DNA from: a virus | DNA: 49,476 nt | Strand: one strand, 5' to 3' | Virus record (IMG/VR): IMGVR_UViG_3300031576_000071 | Location: 1-49,476 of that record | Part shown: positions 3,800 to 35,695 of the stretch, in pieces | How positions within the stretch are numbered: the first letter of the stretch is position 1 | How the letters are laid out: each line of letters opens with the position of its first letter | The notes under the pieces: generated by a model | Database searches by the model: none | Told to the model about the DNA's origin: nothing | The model's input: only the letters and a program-made list of their open reading frames with translations | Translations under genes and position numbers: made by a program

Positions 3800-4218
3800 T
3801 CGTCGTCGCCCGCGGTGTCGTCGTGCCAGCCCAGCGCGGTCCGCGAGGACACGCGCGGCTGGACGGTGGCCGCGGGCGAGGAGCCAATGAGGCTCACCAG
3901 GCCCGCGGCGATCTTGTCGGCCCAGGCTTCGAGCGCCTCGGACCTCTTTTCGTAGGAGCTTCCCTCCGCTGCGGAGTCGAAGCGCTTGAGACGCAGGAGG
4001 CTGAACGCCGCCCTCTCGCACACGCACTGGGTCACCTCGAGGGTGACCGACGAGAGCGGGAGGGAGGCGTTCGGGTACCTCGCGGCGATCTTGCCGTCGA
4101 GCCACGCCGCCGCCGCGTCCAGGTGAGCCTGCGCGTGCCCGGCCCCGAGCGTCGCGGTGACGGTCGAGTCCAGGCCGAACTGCTCGAGCTGGGCGGTGGT
4201 GGCGTAGTTGTTGGCCAT
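3796..4218 (-). CDS. DUF1320 head-tail connector (Mu gp36-like)
   Basis: 140 residues, starting MANNYATTAQLEQFGL. The start 'ATT-QLEQFG', a helix ending in AAAAWLDGKIAARY-P, and CERAAFSLLRLKR with a following YEKRSEALEAW helix match DUF1320 proteins, adaptor-like proteins next to the capsid gene in Mu phages. Confidence 0.8.
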   Translation of the reverse strand: MANNYATTAQLEQFGLDSTVTATLGAGHAQAHLDAAAAWLDGKIAARYPNASLPLSSVTLEVTQCVCERAAFSLLRLKRFDSAAEGSSYEKRSEALEAWADKIAAGLVSLIGSSPAATVQPRVSSRTALGWHDDTAGDDE

Positions 4219-11624: not shown

Positions 11625-11978
11625 GAGCGACCTCCCTCAACGGCGAGGCGCTTCCGTGCCAAGTGTACCAACCGCGTTCCTGGGTGGGTGGAACGCATCG
11701 ATACTGCGTTTCCCCTGATAGAACAGATATGTTCCAAGTGTTCCATACAAACAAGAAGAGAGAGACTCTGCAACGACGAGCGATTTCTCACCTGCTCACC
11801 CCGTGTGTGAAAATAGTTTTCTGTGTGGGGGCTCTGTGATTTTGTCGGACAGGTTGAACACTTGGAACGTCCGGCGCAATCCGGCGTAACCAAAGGGCTT
11901 TTCGTGTTCCAAGTCGCAGGCAGTTTTCTCCCTCGACTTGGAACAACTGGAACTCTCAGGGTGCTTCGCCTCGCGCTT
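11625..11978. promoter_or_regulatory. Non-coding gap with repeated TTGGAAC boxes
   Basis: 354 bases without a credible gene, clearly richer in A/T than the surroundings (e.g. GTGTGAAAATAGTTTTC at about 11804-11820). A 13-mer GTTCCAAGTGTTC (11731-11743) recurs as its exact reverse complement at 11856-11868. TGTTCCAAGTCG (11905-11916) recurs inverted at 11934-11945. Half-sites TGGAAC repeat every 9 bases inside two of these. Could be operators, iterons of an origin next to the helicase-primase genes, or (11905-11945) a hairpin after the helicase gene. Confidence 0.6.
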
Positions 11979-15847: not shown

Positions 15848-16651
15848 TCAGCGACGCTGCGGTATCTCGGTGTCCCCCGACCCCGGCCAGACGATTCCCG
15901 CGCGGGACGCCTCGGGCCACGGGTCGGGGCGAGCGCGGGGCGAGCGCGGGGCGAGCGCTGGCGGCGCGGGCGGCGACGCCGGACCTCCCGCGAACTGCAC
16001 CAGCGCCCGCGCGGTCCGCTCGATGAGCCCGACGGCGAAGACCTGAGAGTCGGGGCCCAGCCGAGGCAGCGCGCTCGCGTACCACGCAAGGACCACCCCG
16101 AGCTCGGCGAGCAGCGCGGCGTGATCGGCGGGCCCGTCCCCGATCTGCCGGTACTGCGCGAGGCACAGGGCCAGCGACCCGCTCCCCCGGATCGCCGCGA
16201 TGGTCTCGATCTCGTCGAGCAGCTCGTCCCGTGGGGAGGACTCTGGCGCTGGCAGCGCAGGTGGGACGGGTGGGGTCAGCAGCCCTCGCCGCGCTGCCAT
16301 GAACACCGCGATCACCGCCTTGGTCACCGCCACCGCCTTGGGGGTCTCGCTCTTGGAGAGGATGAAGATCGCCTCGGGCTCGGAGAGCCAATACTCGACC
16401 GACGCCACCTCGCCCCGCGGCTTCCCGCTCTTGGTAAACCGCGCCACGGTGGCGGGGTTTGAAACCGGCGAGATGACCGGCGGCTCGGTCGAGCCTTCGG
16501 GCACGCGCGACCACCGCTCGATGAGCTTGCGGATCTTGTGCGGGTCCTTGAACTCCAGCCAGCGCGCAAGGTCCAGATCCCGAGCACGGGGCTCTCCCTC
16601 CATCACGGTCAGCGCCGTGTCCCCGAGCATCATCGCCTCGGAGCCGCTCAT
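15848..16651 (-). CDS. Antirepressor-like DNA-binding protein (Rha/Ant-type)
   Basis: 267 residues from ATG at 16651 (ATGA overlap with the zinc protein). RDLDLARWLEFKDPHKIRKLIERW followed by VEYWLSEPEAIFILSKSETPKA and a helix VTKAVIAVFMAARRG is the typical N-domain of phage antirepressor/regulatory proteins. A long Ala/Leu C-domain may carry the effector or oligomerising role. It closes block A, the counterpart of the Bro-N protein at 29672. Confidence 0.7.
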   Translation of the reverse strand: MSGSEAMMLGDTALTVMEGEPRARDLDLARWLEFKDPHKIRKLIERWSRVPEGSTEPPVISPVSNPATVARFTKSGKPRGEVASVEYWLSEPEAIFILSKSETPKAVAVTKAVIAVFMAARRGLLTPPVPPALPAPESSPRDELLDEIETIAAIRGSGSLALCLAQYRQIGDGPADHAALLAELGVVLAWYASALPRLGPDSQVFAVGLIERTARALVQFAGGPASPPAPPALAPRSPRARPDPWPEASRAGIVWPGSGDTEIPQRR

Positions 16652-17010
16652 CGTCCGCCCCCAGCAACGAGAGCGTCCGACTCGGTCCACTCGAACTCGT
16701 GTGGGAGCGGGCTGGGTTCAGCGCTCGGCGCGCGGTCGAGAGCGGCGTCGATGTCCTCGGCGCACGCGCGACAGCACAAGCCGCCGCAGAACACCGCGAC
16801 GGTGGGATCCGCCTCGCGATCCTCGCAGAGCGCGCAGAGCGGACGCCCGACAGGCTTCGCCCAGCGATGCCCCGTCCCGCGGCAGCCGAGACAGCGCACG
16901 CGCACATCCCGAGCGCGGGCAAACCCAGGGATGCCTGGGTCGTGGATGACCTCGTACCCGCTGCCCTCGCACCCCTCGCAACCGACCTGAACCTCGACGC
17001 TGTTGTCCAT
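16648..17010 (-). CDS. DnaJ-type zinc protein with LPHEF tail (block A)
   Basis: 120 residues. CEGCEGSGY and CLGCRGTGH are DnaJ-type CxxCxGxG repeats; LCALCED and CCRACAED add CxxC knuckles. The C-terminus PLPHEFEWTESDALVAGGG resembles that of the block B protein at 29478 (PLPHEFGYDEHSAELAAGG). GGAGG sits 5 bases before the ATG and lies inside a leader hairpin. Confidence 0.75.
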   Translation of the reverse strand: MDNSVEVQVGCEGCEGSGYEVIHDPGIPGFARARDVRVRCLGCRGTGHRWAKPVGRPLCALCEDREADPTVAVFCGGLCCRACAEDIDAALDRAPSAEPSPLPHEFEWTESDALVAGGGR

Positions 17011-17059
17011 GAGTACCTCCGTGTGAGAGGTACTTTGCCAGATTGGTTCAGTGTGTCAA
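17011..17059 (-). promoter_or_regulatory. Promoter and SD-sequestering hairpin, block A
   Basis: TTGACA at 17059-17054. Starting 26 bases after it, GTACCTC begins the hairpin AGTACCTC-(7)-GAGGTACT (17034-17012), whose 3' arm holds the GGAGG ribosome site of the zinc protein. The same spacing and stem occur in block B at 29426-29473. The -10 is weak. Confidence 0.75.
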
Positions 17060-17068
17060 TACGGCAAG

Positions 17069-17386
17069 CTAGGCTTCGTTGATCCTTTTGATTCGCGCAG
17101 CCTTGTACTGCTTCTCCAGCCCGAACTGCCGGATAGATCGCAGGACGTTCCCGGCGGCGGCCATGTCGAACTCGGCAGCAACCTTCGTGAGATTCCAGTC
17201 GTTGGCCACACAGGCTTCGAGCAGCGCGAGCCTCATCGACTCGTCTCCGATGAGCGTGAGCTTGCTCTTCTTGCGGCCCTCGGGCTTCTTGGGCTTGGGT
17301 GGCTTCTTCTTCGTGGCGGCGGTCATCCGGCCTTTGATGGTATCGTTGAGCGCCCCTCGGGGCTGGGTTGAAACGGACGAGAGCAT
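17069..17386 (-). CDS. Fis-like HTH regulator (block A)
   Basis: 105 residues starting MLSSVSTQPRG, with a lysine/proline stretch MTAATKKKPPKPKKPEGRKK and an HTH with NDWNLTKVAAEFDMA. The block B protein at 29108 shares MLSS, MTA-TKK-P-KPKK-EGR and N-WNLT..AE. GAGG lies 7 bases before the first ATG, favouring this start; a second ATG is at 17326. Likely DNA-binding regulator. Confidence 0.75.
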   Translation of the reverse strand: MLSSVSTQPRGALNDTIKGRMTAATKKKPPKPKKPEGRKKSKLTLIGDESMRLALLEACVANDWNLTKVAAEFDMAAAGNVLRSIRQFGLEKQYKAARIKRINEA

Positions 17387-18853: not shown

Positions 18854-19867
18854 TCACGGCACCGTCTCCACCATCGCCCGCACCTGGCGACCCAGGGCCG
18901 CATCGGCCGCGAACCGATCGAGCCCGCCGTGGGCGTCGATGAGTCCCGCGAGGTTGGCCAGGTCCGACAGACGCAGGTCGGACGCGGGCGACGTGGCGCT
19001 CGGGCGTCCCTGCCCTTGCCCCTTCTGCCGCTTCGGGCCGAGCCGTCGTGCGGCTTCCGTTTTCGGCGCGGACCTCGGCGTCCCCGCCGCTGCAACGAGG
19101 TCGGCTGCGACGAGCGCTCCGATCCTCCCTCCCTGGGCGAGCTTGGTGATCGTCGACTTGGCAACGCCGGTCGCTCGCGCGACCGCCGCCGCCGAGCCGT
19201 GCTCGACGAGCAGCGCAGCGTACGCTCGCTTCGCCTCCGCGGACTGCTCAGCGCTCGCGGATCGCGTCGAGCGTCGGGGTGTGGTGTGGGCCGGCCGCTC
19301 TGGCGCGAGTGCCGGAGACTCTCCTGCGGCTGCGGAGATGACGGCGCTCGCAATCGTCTCGCCGCACCGGCCGGTACGCCGAAGCGCACCCAGCGGCGAG
19401 TTGTTCAGCCCGCACGCCTTCGCGGCAGCGAACACCGACCCGTGCCGCGCGACGAGCACGTCGAGCGCGCGCACAGCGTCCGCCTGCAGCTCGGGGCTCG
19501 CGCTCCGGGTGCTGTGCTTCGTCTTCGCCTCGGGCACCGAGGCCGCCGCGGCCGACGCCGCGGGCTCCGGCGGAGGGGGCTCGGGCCGCGGGCTCGGTTC
19601 GGGTGCTGCGGGTGGGGCCGCGGTGGCCTCCGTGCTCGCTGGGGCCAGTGCTGGGTGCCTCCCCTCGCGCATCGCCTTGTTCACCGCGGACTGCTGGCTC
19701 TTGTCGGTGCGGAGATGAAACTCCAGCACCGCGCCGTCCTTCACGATGTGAGCGCCTCGACCGGCAGAGCGCATCGCCCGAGCGGCGTCGCCCTTCTCGG
19801 CGTACCGCCCGAGAACCTCGATGGTCCCCTTGGGCTGGATCACACAGGTCGTGTAGGAGCCGCTCAC
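18854..19867 (-). CDS. Double-HTH protein
   Basis: 337 residues from a GTG at 19867 overlapping the ParB-like stop (GTGA). The middle holds two copies of an HTH (LDVLVARHGSVFAAAKACGL… and YAALLVEHGSAAAVARATGV…), separated by about 60 residues; a Pro/Ala/Glu linker precedes them. The N-domain binds something unknown. Being coupled to a ParB-like gene, it may be a DNA-binding partner. Confidence 0.65.
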   Translation of the reverse strand: MSGSYTTCVIQPKGTIEVLGRYAEKGDAARAMRSAGRGAHIVKDGAVLEFHLRTDKSQQSAVNKAMREGRHPALAPASTEATAAPPAAPEPSPRPEPPPPEPAASAAAASVPEAKTKHSTRSASPELQADAVRALDVLVARHGSVFAAAKACGLNNSPLGALRRTGRCGETIASAVISAAAGESPALAPERPAHTTPRRSTRSASAEQSAEAKRAYAALLVEHGSAAAVARATGVAKSTITKLAQGGRIGALVAADLVAAAGTPRSAPKTEAARRLGPKRQKGQGQGRPSATSPASDLRLSDLANLAGLIDAHGGLDRFAADAALGRQVRAMVETVP

Positions 19868-21585
19868 CGCGCACCGCCCTTCTTGGCTGGGGACCTCGCG
19901 GGCTTCTTCTTCGCCGCCGAGGGCTTCTTTGTCGATGGCTTCGTCGCGGAGGCCTTCGCGGGGACCTTCGCGACAGGTACCTTGCTCTCCGTCGCGATGG
20001 CCGCCGTTGTCTCGGCAGCGATCTTCACGGGGTCCGCCCCGACCTTCTTGAGCAGCTTGCCGAGCGGGGTCTTCGCCAGGTCCTCGGGGGCGGGATCGTC
20101 GTATTCCTGCACTGCCGCGATCCGAAGGAGCAGCGCCGCGCGGACGAGCTCGGGCTCCTTCGCAGCGTCGAGGTGCTTGACGAGCGCGGCTTCGTCCTTC
20201 AGCCCGAGGACCCCGCAGGCCTCCCCGGACGTCGCCATGTCCATCGCGCCCCGCGCGAACTCTCGGAGCACGTCGAGCGCCGTCGCCTTCGACGACCCGT
20301 AGCTGGCCCGCGTGAGCAGCGCGACGCGATGACGTCGCTCGCTCTCCCGCTCCTGCTTCCACTTGTTGGCGGCATCGCTCGGTGCCTTGCTCTCCTTGCC
20401 CTTGCGGGGCGGTCCCGCGCTGCTCGTCGCGAGGTCGGTCTCTGCCTTCGAGGCCCACGCGTACCCCGCAGCGAGCAGCGCCTTCGCGGCTCCGTCCTTG
20501 GTCGCGAGCTCCCGCGGGGTGCCTGTCGGATCGACGGCGATCGCGACCGTCATCGGGTCGAGCCGCTCGCCCACGAGTTGCCACCAGAGCCCCCCGTCCG
20601 GATCCTCGATGCAGTGCTCGTCCAGGTCGATGAACTGCGCGCCGTACGTGACTCCGTGGGGCTCCCAGGTCTGAAACAGCGCCTTGGCTTCCCGCTCGCC
20701 CAGCAGCCGCGCACCGCGCGCCTTCCAGTCCTCGATGCGCCGCTCCTTGGCAGCGCGACCCTTGCGGCCGAAGCACTCGCCGTCGAGGCATGTGTCGTCC
20801 GCCTCGAGGTCTGCGAACAGCCCGGGCTGCGTGCCGGTGCGCTTCGGGCAGCTCGCGCACGACCCGGCCTCGACGACGAGCTGCGCGTCGTCCATCTCCC
20901 ACCGCGCGTCCGCGAGGCGCAGGAAGTAGCGCGACCGAATCTCCTCGATGATCCTCTTCGCGGACAGCTCTCTCTCCCAGCTCTGCCGAGGCCGGAGGAT
21001 CTCCGCGAGCGCCTCGCTCTGCATCGTCGGTCTCGGGAGTCGCGAGAGCTCGAAGGCCACCCCGAGCGCGAGCTTGTCCTCGAGCAGCGCGGCCTTGGCC
21101 TCGGGCACCAGCGCGGTCAGCGAGAGTCTCTGGTGCACCAGGGCCTGGCTCTTCCCGACCTTCCGCGCGATCTGCGGGGCGGTCTGGCGATGCTCGTCAC
21201 GCAGCCTCCGGTACGCCTCGCCCTCGTCGAGGGGGTGGACGTCCTGTCGCTGTGCGTTCTCGACGAGCTGCAGCTCGAGCACGGCGAGGTCGTCGAGCGA
21301 GTCGTCGATCACGCACGGGACCTCGTCCATCCCGACGGCCTGCGCGGCGCGGAAGCGTCGGTGGCCGGTGACGATCTCGTAGATGGGCTCGTCGCCGGGC
21401 AGCCGTCGCACCAAGAGCGGGTGCTCCTGGCGGAAGCCCTGGGCGCACATCGAGGCATGCAGGCCCTCGAGGTCACCCCAGGACGACGACGCGCGGGGGT
21501 TGGATGGGCTCTCGCGCAGCCATCGCGTCGGGAGCTGTTGCGCGGGGCGCAGTGCGTGAACGGGCGGTTCGGTTCCGTCGGCCAT
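19864..21585 (-). CDS. ParB-like nuclease-domain protein
   Basis: 573 residues; AGGAGG 8 bases before ATG 21585. N-terminal ParB/Srx domain: NPR near 29-31, ETGHRRFRA-like VTGHRRFRAAQAVG (72-86) and LVENAQRQDVHPLDEGEAY, then an HTH (APQIARKVGKSQALVHQRL). A middle CASCPKRTG…CLDGECFGRK resembles the zinc-like segment of ParB-like proteins in phages and plasmids. The Lys/Pro/Ala C-tail is histone-like. Possible partition or replication role. Confidence 0.82.
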   Translation of the reverse strand: MADGTEPPVHALRPAQQLPTRWLRESPSNPRASSSWGDLEGLHASMCAQGFRQEHPLLVRRLPGDEPIYEIVTGHRRFRAAQAVGMDEVPCVIDDSLDDLAVLELQLVENAQRQDVHPLDEGEAYRRLRDEHRQTAPQIARKVGKSQALVHQRLSLTALVPEAKAALLEDKLALGVAFELSRLPRPTMQSEALAEILRPRQSWERELSAKRIIEEIRSRYFLRLADARWEMDDAQLVVEAGSCASCPKRTGTQPGLFADLEADDTCLDGECFGRKGRAAKERRIEDWKARGARLLGEREAKALFQTWEPHGVTYGAQFIDLDEHCIEDPDGGLWWQLVGERLDPMTVAIAVDPTGTPRELATKDGAAKALLAAGYAWASKAETDLATSSAGPPRKGKESKAPSDAANKWKQERESERRHRVALLTRASYGSSKATALDVLREFARGAMDMATSGEACGVLGLKDEAALVKHLDAAKEPELVRAALLLRIAAVQEYDDPAPEDLAKTPLGKLLKKVGADPVKIAAETTAAIATESKVPVAKVPAKASATKPSTKKPSAAKKKPARSPAKKGGAR

Positions 21586-28252: not shown

Positions 28253-28268
28253 GGGGAGGCGAGACCGC

Positions 28269-28322
28269 TACAACAAAAAGCGTAGAGACAGGCTTGACGG
28301 TCTACGCTTACAGTTGTAAACG
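28269..28322 (+). promoter_or_regulatory. Rightward early promoter with two inverted operators
   Basis: TTGACG (28294-28299), 17-nt spacer, TAAACG (28317-28322). Operator 1 TACAACAAAAAGCGTAGA (28269-28286) and operator 2 TACAACTGTAAGCGTAGA (28301-28318, minus strand) are 15/18 identical and inverted. Operator 2 holds the same place relative to -35/-10 as the one at 25038-25052; from ACGCTTAC onward 19 of 22 bases match the leftward promoter. Confidence 0.82.
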
Positions 28323-28365
28323 TTGATTCCCCGCCGCACTCCACCGCGCGGGCAAGGAGTCCTCG

Positions 28366-29107: not shown

Positions 29108-29395
29108 ATGCTCTCGTCCGAGATGACCGCCACAAAGAAGCCGAGGAAGCCCAAGAAGTCCGAGGGACGACCCATGTCCGTGCTCACCGAGGCCGGGGAG
29201 AAGGGGCGGATTGCGGCCGTGCGGAAGCTCCTGCTGGAGACGCTCAAGGCGAACAACTGGAACCTTACCGCCACGGCCGAGGCGCTGGGCACCAAGCGGC
29301 CGGGGATCATCCGTGCACTCAACGAAGCAGCGCCCGACGAGTACGCGAGAGCGAAAGCGGACGGGCGCGTTTCGCCAGGGAATCGCAGGGAGTAG
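29108..29395 (+). CDS. Fis-like HTH regulator (block B)
   Basis: 95 residues starting MLSSEMTATKKPRKPKK; AGGAG is 7 bases before the ATG. HTH with NNWNLTATAEALGTKRPGIIRAL. Paralogue of 17069 by shared N-terminal lysine region and WNLT core; the rest has diverged. Confidence 0.78.
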   Translation: MLSSEMTATKKPRKPKKSEGRPMSVLTEAGEKGRIAAVRKLLLETLKANNWNLTATAEALGTKRPGIIRALNEAAPDEYARAKADGRVSPGNRRE

Positions 29396-29425
29396 AGCAG
29401 GAACGACTCTGTACCCGTAACGGAG

Positions 29426-29473
29426 TTGACATAGGTAACGAATCCGTTACTGTACCTCTCGAAAGCGAGGTAC
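29426..29473 (+). promoter_or_regulatory. Promoter, operator palindrome and SD-sequestering hairpin, block B
   Basis: TTGACA (29426-29431), 16-nt spacer, TACTGT (29448-29453). The palindrome GTAACG-AATC-CGTTAC (29435-29450) fills the spacer, and a third GTAACG lies at 29417-29422. The leader starts GTACCTC (29452-29458), loop with GAAA, GAGGTAC (29467-29473); the GAGG pairs away the ribosome site 7 bases before the ATG. Matches block A in the 26-base distance. Confidence 0.78.
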
Positions 29474-29477
29474 GGCC

Positions 29478-29675
29478 ATGGTGTGTTTCCTGTGTGAGTG
29501 CGAGCGCGACGGGGCGGACTGCGACGTGTTCGACGAGAGCGGCCACGTTGCGTGCGCGGGCTGTCTGGCGGAGTGGGCGGAGTTCTGCGAGCACGGGGAG
29601 CGCCCCGAGCCGTTGCCCCACGAGTTCGGGTACGACGAGCACAGCGCCGAGCTGGCCGCGGGAGGGATGCTGTGA
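29478..29675 (+). CDS. Zinc protein with LPHEF tail (block B)
   Basis: 65 residues. CFLCECERDGADC and CAGCLAEWAEFC form zinc knuckles; the C-terminus PLPHEFGYDEHSAELAAGG matches block A protein 16648. It lacks the DnaJ repeats, which here are in the separate gene 28599. Translation probably regulated by the leader hairpin. Confidence 0.75.
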   Translation: MVCFLCECERDGADCDVFDESGHVACAGCLAEWAEFCEHGERPEPLPHEFGYDEHSAELAAGGML

Positions 29676-30397
29676 GCGCCGAGCTTGCGCCACTGGCGTT
29701 CGAGGGCAACACGCTCTCGGTAGTGACTCGCGAAGGGGCGACGTACTTCGTTGCCGCGGAGGTGAGCCGCGCGCTCGGGTACACGGAGCCAGGGCGGATC
29801 ACGGACCTCATCTCGAAGGAGTGGAAGGGCGAGTTCATCGAGGGGGTGGACTTCGTGAAGCTCACGGGGCCGGATCTCCGGGCGCTCAGGGTGTCGTTGG
29901 GCGACGACCCACGAGTTACGTGGGTCGTGGGCGATCGGGTGAACAGCCTCCTCCTCCTCACCCGCGACGGGCTGAACCTCGCGCTCATCAAGACGCGCAA
30001 GCCCGCGGGGGTGCGGATGCGTCGGTGGCTGGTGTCCGAGGTGCTCCCGGCGCTCGCGGCCCGTCGTGCCCCACCCGTCACTCCCGCGTTGCCAGCGCCC
30101 GCGGACGAACTGCTTGCTCGACTGGAGCGACTCGCAGCGGAGCTGGAGTCCCCAGCCCTCTCGGTGACGTGCGTCCAGATCCGCGTTCACGGTTGGGCTC
30201 CGGCGACTCAGCGCGCGACGTGGCAACGAGAGTTGTTCGCGGACCTTGCGAGCCTCGCGGTTCGGCTTGCTCGCAGGAGCCTGGACGCGAGCGAGCCGAG
30301 GGACGTGCGGCGAGCGTCGAAGCAGTCCGCGTTGAGCGCGACCGCATTGCTCCGCGGACTCATCATCGAGCACGGGGGCGGCGATGAGGCGCTCTGA
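29672..30397 (+). CDS. Bro-N antirepressor
   Basis: 241 residues from GTG 29672 (GTGA overlap). Bro-N domain in residues about 5-125: LAFEGNTLSVVTREGATYFVA-AEVSRALGY, then LLLLTRDGLNLALIKTRKP and RWLVSEVLPAL. The C-domain is different from typical AntA/KilA-C. Likely antirepressor or regulator; the block A equivalent is 15848. Confidence 0.85.
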   Translation: MSAELAPLAFEGNTLSVVTREGATYFVAAEVSRALGYTEPGRITDLISKEWKGEFIEGVDFVKLTGPDLRALRVSLGDDPRVTWVVGDRVNSLLLLTRDGLNLALIKTRKPAGVRMRRWLVSEVLPALAARRAPPVTPALPAPADELLARLERLAAELESPALSVTCVQIRVHGWAPATQRATWQRELFADLASLAVRLARRSLDASEPRDVRRASKQSALSATALLRGLIIEHGGGDEAL

Positions 30398-30575: not shown

Positions 30576-32059
30576 CAACGGAGATCGACAGGTACGGGCT
30601 CGAGCCGAAGGACGGCGAGGGCGCATGGCAGCTTGCGAGGGTCGCGGCGGCGTCGGGGATGTACGGCGTCCAGAAGCCCGAGCAGGCGCTGGTCATCATC
30701 ATGACGGGCCGCGAACTCGGGCTGTCCGCGAGCCAGGCGCTGCGCGGGATCCAGGTGGTGAAGGGCAAGCCGAACATCTCGGCGGACCTGCTCGTCGCGC
30801 TCGTGCGGCGCAGCGAGCTCTGCGAGAGCTGGTTCGTCGCGGAGAGCTCCCCCGAGAGTTGCACGATCGAGACGAAGCGTCGGGGTGACCAGGCCCCGCG
30901 TCGGCTCACCTGGACGATGGCGGACGCGAAGCGCGCGGGGATCTCGGGCGAGATGTACACGAAGTACCCGCGCCAGATGCTGCGCCACGGGTGCGCCGCG
31001 GACCTGGCGCGCGAGGTGTACCCCGACCTGTGCTTCGGGCTGTACGCGCCCGAGGAGTTCGATGACCCGCGGGACCTGCCGGGGATCGGGGACGGAGTCC
31101 CCGACCGAGGGCGAGCCCTCGGACTCCCGCCGGAGCCCGTGAGCGTGGACGTGTCCCCTTCGAAGGCACCCGCTCCTGCCAGCGCTGCGGCGATTGTCGA
31201 GGAACCCGAGGCGGCACCGATCCCGCCCGCGATCCAGCGCGTCCGCGACTCCCTCGCGCAGTTCGGCGGGCCCCTCCTCGCAGCGCAGGCCGCCGCGGTG
31301 TGGTCGGACCACTACGACGAGCTCCCCGAGGCGCTGCGAGACCGGGCCTGGGAGATGATCGAACTCTCGCTCGCGGACCAGCAGAAGACCGCGTTCAAGT
31401 CCCTCGCGCAGGCCCACGAGGCCAGGGTGGCCGCGAAGAAGCGCGCCGCGATAGCACCCGCCGCGCCGGCTGCGGGCACTCTCGAACACGACCGCTCGAG
31501 GATCCGCGCCGCCGCCACCGTCGCCGAGCTCGAGGCGGTGAAGGCGTCTCTGTCGAAGGAGACGATCGGCGCGCTCATCGAGACTCTGTGGCTTCGCAGG
31601 ATCGCGCTCTGCGCCTCGCTCGGCGACCTGAAGAAGCTCGACTTCGGCGTCAGGTCGATCCGATCCGCGTCGCTGCGCGGCATGGTCGAGCGCGCCCTGA
31701 GCACCCGTTGGACCGAGCTCAGCCCCCCCGGCCCCGGTGACGACGGGGGAGGCGAGCCCGCTCCCAGCTCGGGTACTCCTGCCGACGAGGACCCCGAGCG
31801 CGAAGCCATCGCAGGCGAACCAGCGGGCTCGCCCCTCTCCGTCGCCGTCGCTCGCCTCCACGGCTGCAACGGGCCCTCGCACGCGGTCTCGCACTACCTC
31901 GCGCACCGCGACGAGCTCGAGGGGTCGGCGCGCGTGGCGTACCGCGAGGCCCTCGTCACGCACCTGGCGCACCGGTACCCGCGCGCGGTCCCGTCGCTCG
32001 ATGCCGCCAAGCAGCTCGTCGCCGAGACGGAGTCCATCAGCGCGCGGAGGGCGGCGTGA
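30572..32059 (+). CDS. recT: RecT-like single-strand annealing protein with long C-extension
   Basis: 495 residues, about 200 longer than usual RecT. Residues 1-165 carry the RecT core (MTGRELGLSASQALRGIQVVKGKPN; ISADLLVALVRRS; DAKRAGI; KYPRQMLRHGCAADLAREVYPD). Residues about 171-186 (GIGDGVPDRGRALGLP) are encoded by palindromic element copy B. Residues 200-495 are helical (HDRSRIRAAATVAELEAVKASL; HAVSHYLAHRDELEGSARVAY) of unknown role, perhaps protein contacts. Pairs complementary strands in recombination. Confidence 0.82.
   Translation: MTTEIDRYGLEPKDGEGAWQLARVAAASGMYGVQKPEQALVIIMTGRELGLSASQALRGIQVVKGKPNISADLLVALVRRSELCESWFVAESSPESCTIETKRRGDQAPRRLTWTMADAKRAGISGEMYTKYPRQMLRHGCAADLAREVYPDLCFGLYAPEEFDDPRDLPGIGDGVPDRGRALGLPPEPVSVDVSPSKAPAPASAAAIVEEPEAAPIPPAIQRVRDSLAQFGGPLLAAQAAAVWSDHYDELPEALRDRAWEMIELSLADQQKTAFKSLAQAHEARVAAKKRAAIAPAAPAAGTLEHDRSRIRAAATVAELEAVKASLSKETIGALIETLWLRRIALCASLGDLKKLDFGVRSIRSASLRGMVERALSTRWTELSPPGPGDDGGGEPAPSSGTPADEDPEREAIAGEPAGSPLSVAVARLHGCNGPSHAVSHYLAHRDELEGSARVAYREALVTHLAHRYPRAVPSLDAAKQLVAETESISARRAA
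31081..31128. repeat. In-frame two-hairpin palindromic element, copy B
   Basis: GGGGATC, hairpin 1 GGGGAC-GGA-GTCCCC, hairpin 2 CCGAGGGC-GA-GCCCTCGG, then ACTCCC. It lies in the recT linker with the frame kept. Relative to copy A (13432-13483) both stems differ but remain paired. Confidence 0.85.
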
Positions 32060-32925
32060 GCGCGGCCCCCGACGTCCCCCTCGAAGACCTCCTGCCCTCC
32101 CGGCGGTCCGATCGAGTGCGAGCCCGAACCATCTCGATCAAGCGCCTGTCCAAGCGCGACCTGGAGCGAGGGAGGGTGGAGGCGGACGCGCTGCTCGCGC
32201 AGATCCCCGAGGCGGACCGACGGCGACCCGAGAGGCTGAGCGAGTGTCGCCGCACCGAGCTCGGGAGACCCGGGCAGCCGTGCCCGTTCGTGTCGTGCGA
32301 GGCGCACCTGTACCTGGACGTGAGCCCGCGCACCGGCGCGATCAAGCTGAACTTCCCGGACCTCGAGGTGTGGGAGATGCCCGTGACCTGTGCCTACGCG
32401 GTTGCGGGGCTGAGCGGAGAGACGCTCGAGCTGGTCGGCGAGCGGATGAACGTCACCCGCGAGCGGGTGCGCCAGCTCGAAACCAGAGCGCTGAGGCGTA
32501 TTCGCACCGTCGCCCCAGCCCTGCGCGAGCACCTCGACCGCGAGGAGGCGAGGCTTGATCTCGGCGCAGCAGCCCGCGCTCCGGGGCATCGAATCCGCAC
32601 GGGTCGGCCACTGACAGCCGAGGAGCGCGCAGCGGGACTGGCGATCCTCCGAGACCTCGTTGCCGTCCACGGCGTCCGCGGCCTTGCGGCGCTCGCGGGG
32701 TGCTCGACCGCGACGATCTACGACGGGGTAGGCCGACGACGCGAGCGGATCGGACGCAGGCTCTACGAGCGCCTGCGCACCCTCGCTGCGACCCGACTCC
32801 CACCGCTCGACCGCGACCTGTCGGGAGCCGAGAGGATCCGCTGCGCGATCGGCGCGCGGCAACTCGATGCGATCGATCGCGCTGGCGCGGTCGAAGCGTG
32901 GGCCGAGGAGGTGCGCCGTGGATAG
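32056..32925 (+). CDS. Sigma-70 region-4-like DNA-binding protein
   Basis: 289 residues from GTG 32056 (GTGA overlap). The HTH GERMNVTRERVRQLETRALRRI is the signature of sigma region 4 (recognition of -35). A conserved N-part with RPGQPCPFVSCEAHLYLDV precedes it; the C-part has a second HTH-like ALAGCSTATIYDGVGRRR. No region 2 is seen, so it may modify host RNA polymerase and not act as a full sigma factor. Confidence 0.78.
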   Translation: MSAAPDVPLEDLLPSRRSDRVRARTISIKRLSKRDLERGRVEADALLAQIPEADRRRPERLSECRRTELGRPGQPCPFVSCEAHLYLDVSPRTGAIKLNFPDLEVWEMPVTCAYAVAGLSGETLELVGERMNVTRERVRQLETRALRRIRTVAPALREHLDREEARLDLGAAARAPGHRIRTGRPLTAEERAAGLAILRDLVAVHGVRGLAALAGCSTATIYDGVGRRRERIGRRLYERLRTLAATRLPPLDRDLSGAERIRCAIGARQLDAIDRAGAVEAWAEEVRRG

Positions 32926-33575: not shown

Positions 33576-34627
33576 TCGCTCGAACGACCAACGCGGCGAC
33601 CAAGAGGTTCTACACCCAGAAGAGCGGGCACCTGGTCGCGCTCCTGGGCGGGTCCACCCCGATCGCCTCGCTCCGCGTCGATCACCTCGACGGGTACCTG
33701 CGGATGCGACGCGTGGCGGTCCCGGCCCCGTCGGAGCACACGATTCACAAGGAGGTCCGCACCCTCTCGACCGCGCTCCGTCTGTCGAAGCGGTGCGGTC
33801 TGTTTCGCGGTGACTTGCTCGCGCTGATCCCGCCGACGTCCGCGGAGTACACCCCGCGCGACCGATGGCTCCCGCTGCACGAGGTCGTGGCCCTGATCGC
33901 CGCGTACCACCAGGACTACGCCGACCATGCGGCGCGCGTGGCCTTCGCGGTCGCGACCGGAGCCGAGTGGTCCGCGCTCGATCGAGCCCAGCGCGAGGAC
34001 CTGGGCCCCGAGCTCGTGCGCGTGCGCGGCACCAAGAACGCCAAGCGAGACCGAGTCGTCCCGATCGTCACGCCCTGGCAGCGAGACCTGCTCGCCTTCG
34101 CTCGCTCGAACGCCCGGGGTCGCGAGGGGACGCTCTTCGCTCCCTGGCTGCAGCGCTCGGCCCTCCGCTCGCTCGAGGTCGCGAGCGTCCGGGCAGGGAT
34201 TGCCCACGCGACCTGGCACGACCTACGCCGGACGTGCGCCCAGCTCCTCCGGCGCGGGGGTGTGTCGTTCGACTCGCTCGCCCCGGTGCTGGGGCACTCC
34301 TCGACGCACGTCACGCAGAGCGTTTACGCGCGGCTGGATCCACACGCCCTCGCGGATCGGCTCCGCGCGGAGCTCGGCTCCGGGGCTGTGTCGCCGGTGT
34401 GCCAAACTCCTTCGGATTCGTCGGACTCCCTGGACTGGTTGGACTCGGTGGACCAGCGAAAATCCAGGGAAGTGGTGGGTGATGATGGACTTGAACCATC
34501 AGCCAACGGATTAAGAGTCCGTGGCCTGATCCTCGGATTGCGTGGAAAAAGGCCCAAGAGACGCGCGCGTAAGCGGGCCACTGTGACGCCGGTGTGCCGT
34601 GACTCGGCGATCCGGAGGCGAGCGTGA
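33380..34627 (+). CDS. int: Tyrosine integrase, atypical at Arg I
   Basis: 415 residues from ATG 33380. N-terminal arm/core-binding domains about 1-160. Catalytic domain: GTKNAKRDRVVPI (Lys), HDLRRT (His 280, Arg 283), LGHSS (His 306), SVYARL (nucleophile Tyr 316). At the first Arg site the text is ATGAEWSAL with Glu 196 where Arg is expected. Residues about 335-415 come from attP DNA (arm repeats and tRNA half) and would change on integration. Joins attP with attB in a tRNA-Lys gene. Confidence 0.9.
   Translation: MQLYKRGRTWWVDYLGLDGQRRRESTRCTDRKAAEAEGARRERDARDPDSAAIRDETVERSLLRLIARTTNAATKRFYTQKSGHLVALLGGSTPIASLRVDHLDGYLRMRRVAVPAPSEHTIHKEVRTLSTALRLSKRCGLFRGDLLALIPPTSAEYTPRDRWLPLHEVVALIAAYHQDYADHAARVAFAVATGAEWSALDRAQREDLGPELVRVRGTKNAKRDRVVPIVTPWQRDLLAFARSNARGREGTLFAPWLQRSALRSLEVASVRAGIAHATWHDLRRTCAQLLRRGGVSFDSLAPVLGHSSTHVTQSVYARLDPHALADRLRAELGSGAVSPVCQTPSDSSDSLDWLDSVDQRKSREVVGDDGLEPSANGLRVRGLILGLRGKRPKRRARKRATVTPVCRDSAIRRRA
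34386..34403 (+). repeat. attP arm repeat, left copy
   Basis: CTGTGTCGCCGGTGTGCC, 70 bases left of the tRNA-like core. The partner at 34581-34598 differs at one base and has the same orientation, as expected for integrase arm-type sites. Confidence 0.65.
34414..34458 (+). repeat. Five 9-base tandem repeats beside attP
   Basis: GGATTCGTC, GGACTCCCT, GGACTGGTT, GGACTCGGT, GGACCAGCG in a row. They end 14 bases before the attP core. May bind integrase arms or excisionase, or may simply encode the acidic D-S/D-L repeats in the integrase tail. Confidence 0.6.
34473..34522 (-). other. attP: attP core: 3' half of tRNA-Lys(CTT)
   Basis: On the minus strand: anticodon stem-loop ACGGA-CTCTTAA-TCCGT (34522-34506; anticodon CTT), variable TGGCT, T arm GATGG-TTCAAGT-CCATC (34500-34484), acceptor strand ATCACCC and ACCA (to 34473). 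The D arm and 5' acceptor are missing, so it is not a full tRNA gene. Integration would rebuild a host tRNA-Lys gene. Confidence 0.9.
34581..34598 (+). repeat. attP arm repeat, right copy
   Basis: CTGTGACGCCGGTGTGCC, 58 bases right of the core; 17/18 identical to 34386-34403 in direct orientation. Confidence 0.65.
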
Positions 34628-35047: not shown

Positions 35048-35269
35048 ATGGCCACCAAGAAGACCGGCGCGAAGAGCCCGCCCAAGCCCCCAGGAAGCCG
35101 CCAACTGGCGGTGAACATCCCCGAGGTACTCATGGACGATCTGGATGCCTGGACGGACTGGGAGCGGGCGCAGGACCCCATTCGCAACGCGAGCGTTACC
35201 AAGAAGGACATGGTCATCCGCGCGCTCGCGGACGCTGTAGACCGGTGGAAGAAAAAGAGCGGAAGCTAG
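35048..35269 (+). CDS. Ribbon-helix-helix-type protein
   Basis: 73 residues starting MATKKTGAKSPPKPPG. RQLAVNIPEVLMDDLDAWTDWER followed by TKKDMVIRALADAVDRW gives strand-helix-helix of an RHH repressor or antitoxin. First gene of a short plus-strand group after attP. Confidence 0.65.
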   Translation: MATKKTGAKSPPKPPGSRQLAVNIPEVLMDDLDAWTDWERAQDPIRNASVTKKDMVIRALADAVDRWKKKSGS

Positions 35270-35314
35270 TAGCAAGTCATTGACTAGTTATGGGGGAAGG
35301 ATTAGATTCTACTC

Positions 35315-35695
35315 ATGACGAAGCGCACCGGCCGATTCTTCTCGATCCCCCGCACAGCCGAGACCGGGGACTACCGCGCGCGAGGGCTCCTCGCCCACGC
35401 GGTCTTCGGCCGCGACGGTCTGCGCTGCGTGTACTGCGGCGCGCGGGCGACCGAGGGCGCGGAGATCGAGATCGACCATGTCCGTCCTGCCTCGCACTTC
35501 TCCGCAGGGACCGAGCGTGACGTCGTCAACGCAACGTCCAACCTCGTAACCGCCTGCGAGTCCTGCAACAACGTGAAGGGCGGCTGCGGGCTCGAAGGCT
35601 TCATCGAGAAGCTGCTCGCTCTCGGCGTGAGCCTCCGTTCGGTCGATGCCCTCCGGCTCCGAGTCGAGGCTGCGACATCCACCATCATCGAGTGA
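35315..35695 (+). CDS. HNH endonuclease
   Basis: 126 residues. CVYCG and CESCN form the zinc site; IDHVRPASHFSAGTERDVVNATSNLVTAC is the HNH core (His 55-region, Asn, then NLV..C..CN). Could assist packaging or be a homing-type or nicking nuclease; HNH genes are common near phage termini, though here it is far from the terminase. Confidence 0.85.
   Translation: MTKRTGRFFSIPRTAETGDYRARGLLAHAVFGRDGLRCVYCGARATEGAEIEIDHVRPASHFSAGTERDVVNATSNLVTACESCNNVKGGCGLEGFIEKLLALGVSLRSVDALRLRVEAATSTIIE

Follow-up and report, generated by a model that had tools for sequence, protein, structure and literature searches.

Does the palindrome that covers the ribosome site of two paralogous phage operons act in RNA, as a hairpin that hides this site, or in DNA, as an operator, and on which transcripts could such a hairpin act? 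The question arises from the IMG/VR phage record IMGVR_UViG_3300031576_000071, which was analyzed over positions 1 to 49,476 (49,476 nt, hereafter the window). The ends of the record are identical over 127 bp, and the window codes for a terminase, a RecT-like protein, ParB, an integrase, and a sigma70-region-4 protein. Two blocks, A (minus strand) and B (plus strand), consist in identical order of a Fis-like HTH gene, a short leader, a zinc-type gene, and an Ant-like gene (Table 1). The aligned proteins of the two blocks are 41% (HTH) and 35% (zinc) identical, while coding nucleotide identity is 47-52% (0.52 and 0.47) and third positions agree at ~40%. The HTH gene and the zinc gene are co-directional in both blocks, with 58-82 nt from the end of the former to the ATG of the latter, and a terminator scan of the window found no terminator-like site between them. 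The stop codon of the zinc gene overlaps the start codon of the Ant-like gene, as ATGA in A and GTGA in B; this overlap and a second inverted repeat, located at the -35 box, were absent from an earlier, sequence-only reading of the locus.

Table 1. Coordinates of the genes and leader features of blocks A and B in the window.
Feature	Block	Position	Strand	Remarks
HTH gene	A	17069..17386	-	upstream of leader A; paralogous to B and hence Fis-like; N-terminal tail basic
HTH gene	B	29108..29395	+	upstream of leader B; Pfam HTH_8, Fis family
Zinc-protein gene	A	16648..17010	-	120 aa; DnaJ-type CxxCxGxG and RING-like cysteines, weak matches
Zinc-protein gene	B	29478..29675	+	65 aa
Ant-like gene	A	15848..16651	-	paralogous to gene B, E 3e-7; without own family match
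Ant-like gene	B	29672..30397	+	Bro-N domain, antirepressor families
TTGACA, -35-like	A	17054..17059	-	1 of 2 copies in window
TTGACA, -35-like	B	29426..29431	+	1 of 2 copies in window
Candidate -10 CAAAGT	A	17032..17037	-	putative; spacing 16, overlaps 5' arm; weak hexamer
Candidate -10 TACTGT (TANNNT)	B	29448..29453	+	putative; spacing 16, overlaps 5' arm
Hairpin II 5' arm GTACCTC	A	17027..17033	-	
Hairpin II 3' arm GAGGTAC	A	17013..17019	-	includes zinc-gene SD
Hairpin II 5' arm GTACCTC	B	29452..29458	+	
Hairpin II 3' arm GAGGTAC	B	29467..29473	+	includes SD
Inverted repeat I 5' arm TTGCCGTATTG	A	17057..17067	-	9/11 complementary
Inverted repeat I 3' arm CAATCTGGCAA	A	17035..17045	-	
Inverted repeat I 5' arm GTAACGGAGTTG	B	29417..29428	+	GTAACGGA perfect
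Inverted repeat I 3' arm CGAATCCGTTAC	B	29439..29450	+	partly in near-palindrome GTAACGAATCCGTTAC 29435-29450

Several other parts of the genome were noted in passing. The ParB protein (ParB_N and HTH_ParB; 19864-21585) is found in a phage that also carries an integrase, and the sigma70 region-4 domain protein (32056-32925) could influence phage promoter choice. A tRNA-like stretch at 34470-34538 (Rfam tRNA, 24.9 bits, below the gathering threshold; no tRNA according to ARAGORN) lies near the 3' end of the integrase gene and may be a 3' piece of a tRNA used as attP. At 21.2 kb, a seeming third copy of Bro-N (repeat D6) was discarded, the region being the ParB gene on the opposite strand, and for Ant-like protein A a single-sequence model was of insufficient quality for use.

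Both leaders conform to the pattern TTGACA-N20-GTACCTC-N7/8-GAGGTAC-N2/4-ATG. The sequence-only reading had described for block A a GTACCTC that starts 26 bases from the start of TTGACA and is followed by GAGGTAC, with the SD of the zinc-protein gene in the 3' arm; the sequence bears this out, and GAGGTAC holds the SD in block B as well. Its further statement that the element recurs in block B at the same distances is accurate for the stem and for the gap of 20 nt between TTGACA and the 5' arm, which is alike in the two leaders, but only approximate for the start codon, which follows the 3' arm after TC in A (ATG at 17010) and after GGCC in B (ATG at 29478). Spacer and loop differ, as it had said: the loop is TCACACG (7 nt) in A and TCGAAAGC (8 nt) in B, and outside the motif only 13/29 leader positions agree, vs 20/20 identical motif bases. 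Since TTGACA and the 5' arm keep a fixed separation while the loop and the distance from the 3' arm to the ATG vary, the 5' arm appears tied in position to the promoter, and the 3' arm to the start codon.

The element is also rare in its surroundings. TTGACA occurs twice in the 49-kb window on either strand, at leaders A and B only, and GTACCTC-N3..20-GAGGTAC is found at the same two sites and in none of 100 shuffles. An SD inside a perfect stem of 7 bp or longer was seen at 3 of the 249 SD-bearing candidate starts in the window, namely A, B, and one at 4021. The sequence GAGGTACTCATG at 35123 was set aside; it sits within a small ORF and is without a 5' arm. Identity at all 20 motif bases and the exact 20-nt spacing, set against a diverged coding and leader background, show that the element is under selection.

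Folding calculations indicate that the leader stems are stable, at -12.3 kcal/mol in A and -14.8 kcal/mol in B; of 200 shuffles, 0 and 3, respectively, fold as stably. Both stems are lengthened by U-G pairs, and the SD lies in a 9-bp stem. In read-through RNA the computed probability that the SD is unpaired is at most 0.002 (paired, at least 0.998), and in local RNA from an assumed start in the loop it is 0.30-0.61 for A and 0.11-0.47 for B. On RNA initiated upstream, the SD is thus computed to be sequestered in a stable stem of the T4 gene e type. An Rfam search of the whole window returned no family match to the leaders and no match to the c4 antisense RNA family.

The location of the presumed promoter determines which RNA can form this stem. 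With TTGACA taken as the -35 box, the sole hexamers at a spacing of 16-18 that combine A at -11 with T at -7 are the two candidate -10 boxes of Table 1; the last two bases of each are also the first two of the 5' arm, a position kept between A and B. Together, TTGACA and a -10 box over the 5' arm would constitute a local sigma70-type promoter and, if TTGACA is the -35 box, consensus geometry would place the transcription start ~7 bases past the -10 box, in the loop. A generic promoter scan called neither site A nor site B, because the -10 boxes are weak. A local mRNA with the predicted start in the loop would be without the 5' arm and could not hide its own ribosome site. On this premise the hairpin could act only on RNA that reads through from the HTH gene upstream, and the original proposal that it hides the ribosome site is retained in part: the SD does lie in a well-folding stem, but an mRNA from the TTGACA promoter would not contain the 5' arm. 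Elsewhere in the window, at 35236-35320, a promoter-like TTGACT-N17-TAGATT would start transcription at about the ATG (35315) of a possible leaderless gene.

The second inverted repeat, repeat I, surrounds the -35 box. Its arms read TTGCCgtATTG/CAATctGGCAA in A and GTAACGGAgTtG/CgAaTCCGTTAC in B; they differ between the blocks yet remain complementary, and their dyads agree within half a base. For repeat I of A, 6/500 shuffles fold equally well and 13/300 hold an equally good inverted repeat; for that of B, 4/500 and 2/300 shuffles are as good, so that repeat I outscores ~95-99% of shuffles, depending on the measure used. It is probably a block-specific operator governing the local promoter, at a position customary for operators and perhaps bound by the HTH protein of its own block; as RNA, it would form a hairpin directly next to hairpin II. 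The operator reading of repeat I is favored because the AT-rich island at 28268-28330 contains such a repeat without an SD hairpin, a perfect 9-bp inverted repeat AAGCGTAGA-N14-TCTACGCTT (28278-28309) around TTGACG. This repeat is followed by TTACAGTTGTAA, and the island likely serves as promoter and operator for the rightward set of genes to which block B belongs. Another AT-rich island, at 11674-11945, carries a 12-bp inverted repeat TGTTCCAAGTCG/CGACTTGGAACA with a 17-nt loop and a further TGTTCCAAGTGTTCC motif, and is a probable regulatory region.

The reading to which we assign the highest weight, with a probability of roughly 0.5, is a composite promoter-in-hairpin switch located before a translationally coupled zinc/Ant-like operon. 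RNA reading through from the HTH gene has both arms and, by calculation, its SD in the 9-bp stem, and the zinc gene on this RNA would be poorly translated; through the overlapping start, silencing would spread from the zinc gene to the Ant-like gene. RNA from the putative local sigma70-type promoter, whose -10 box would overlap the 5' arm, should start in the loop without that arm and, as computed from this assumed start, have its SD open. Expression of the operon would then require that its own promoter be free, transcription of the surroundings notwithstanding. Retention in both blocks of A at -11 and T at -7 at spacing 16 speaks for this arrangement, as do the comparison of the leaders, the computed SD accessibilities, the matching dyads of repeat I, the similar leaders of other phages, and the T4 precedents; the loop difference of 1 nt together with the U-G extensions of the stem is easier to reconcile with RNA than with a rigid dimer site. 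Several observations speak against it: the -10 box of A is weak and the promoter scan called neither site, the GTAC part of the 7-bp core shows no compensatory change, as would be expected of an operator, and repeat I is unnecessary for a translational switch.

An alternative is a reading in DNA, which we consider a substantial possibility, though short of even odds: GTACCTC...GAGGTAC would be a shared site for a repressor dimer over the -10 box, the start, and the SD, the RNA stem would be a by-product of the palindrome, and repeat I would be a second, block-specific operator. The arms are identical even though synonymous sites look saturated, which argues that the sequence has been kept and not merely the pairing; the site spans -10/+1, a classic operator place; each block has an HTH gene; and other AT-rich islands have inverted repeats around TTGACx without an SD hairpin. 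Dimeric repressors rarely tolerate a 1-bp change in half-site spacing, however, and here the half-sites are separated by 7 bp in one block and 8 bp in the other, a difference that with two sites is not decisive. The 3' arm, moreover, coincides exactly with the SD in both blocks, and no further copy of the palindrome exists in the phage, the regions upstream of the HTH genes included.

If the hairpin instead belonged to the main mRNA, it could be a translational operator to which the zinc protein, or another, binds and represses its own translation. Stable folding of both leaders with the SD in the stem, the zinc-type cysteines of the downstream product, and the capacity of repeat I to fold as an abutting RNA hairpin all agree with this proposal, but the main transcript would have to start upstream of the 5' arm, which leaves the perfect, position-locked TTGACA unexplained; the loops, where proteins usually make contact, differ between the blocks, and the leaders match no Rfam family. 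We regard it as unlikely. That the likeness of the leaders is simply inherited from block duplication, with a pairing that has no function, is very improbable, for although the blocks are true paralogues, their coding and spacer sequences are only about half identical and the motif bases and spacing have nonetheless been retained in full.

Relatives of the blocks are scarce. Searches with single sequences and two-sequence alignments found none for the zinc, HTH, or Ant-like proteins in viral_contigs or the phage collection, apart from one Bro-N match to AntB (L246; 26% identical), and in the stretches read of the terminase relatives (L192-L240), of which the close ones share structural genes, no block homologue was found. 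The exact leader pattern gave 70 viral-contig matches and 3 in the genome collection, neither number exceeding a rough chance estimate; most of these matches are without the promoter-hairpin-start layout. A like geometry was seen in other phages (L160/L190, L158, and L156), which were picked by a scan biased toward GTACCTC...GAGG and serve as examples, not as an estimate of frequency. In the unrelated phage contig L160 (4575-4640), and likewise in L190, the -10 box of TTGACA-N17-TAGAGT falls within the 5' arm of a stem of 14 bp, one of them G-U (leader fold, -27.4 kcal/mol); the SD covered by this stem belongs to the gene of a 200-aa protein of unassigned function. On the minus strand of L156, in an element next to 11257, the leader of an HNH endonuclease pairs TGTATAGTACC, which holds the -10 box, with GGTACTATACA over the ribosome site, a pairing as in the T4 homing endonucleases. 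A survey of promoter-in-stem geometry over 2.3 Mb of loci yielded too few cases, from biased sampling, for an enrichment to be shown.

The design itself is known from phage T4. Long early RNA of genes e, soc, 49, and I-TevI folds into a stem that hides the SD; in gene e, the 5' strand of this stem is encoded by the local late promoter, and local transcripts, being without that strand, are translated (PMC3014915). The leaders described here resemble gene e in having a computed SD stem on upstream transcripts and, as their sequence suggests, a promoter over the 5' strand; they differ in that the T4 late promoters are TATAAATA and depend on gp55, whereas a sigma70-type TTGACA promoter is proposed here, and in that the gene products and the phages are unrelated and the present case is known from sequence alone. 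Leaders A and B would be a new example of the design on a sigma70-type promoter. If this is true, it would carry a textbook device of T4 over to promoters of the sigma70 type and to a temperate phage's regulatory operon, and the presence of two diverged copies in one genome allows operator and hairpin to be tested against each other side by side. A broader and rather doubtful conjecture is that of a temperate phage with two-layer control, in which two paralogous antirepressor-type operons differ in the operator specificity of their -35 regions, have in common a promoter-in-hairpin that silences read-through, and are separately switchable, perhaps as a general sigma70 counterpart of the T4 late-promoter hairpins.

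Leaders of homing-endonuclease genes (I-TevI, I-TevII, I-TevIII, segB, and mobE) provide a second comparison; in I-TevI the promoter is also overlain by an operator, and phage Aeh1 has similar leaders in segB and mobE (PMC2988022). As is proposed for blocks A and B, a promoter and a hairpin that sequesters the ribosome binding site, joined in I-TevI by an operator, are combined in one leader. The genes controlled here, in contrast, are the zinc and Ant-like genes, and the putative operator is an inverted repeat. Antirepressor control offers a third parallel, in that the c4 RNA of P1/P7 and the sar RNA of P22 are antisense RNAs that control an antirepressor (PMC12197685), whose translation is held down via the region of the ribosome site, as is proposed for the Ant-like operons; c4 and sar act as antisense RNAs, whereas in leaders A and B the complementary strand lies in cis, in the same hairpin.
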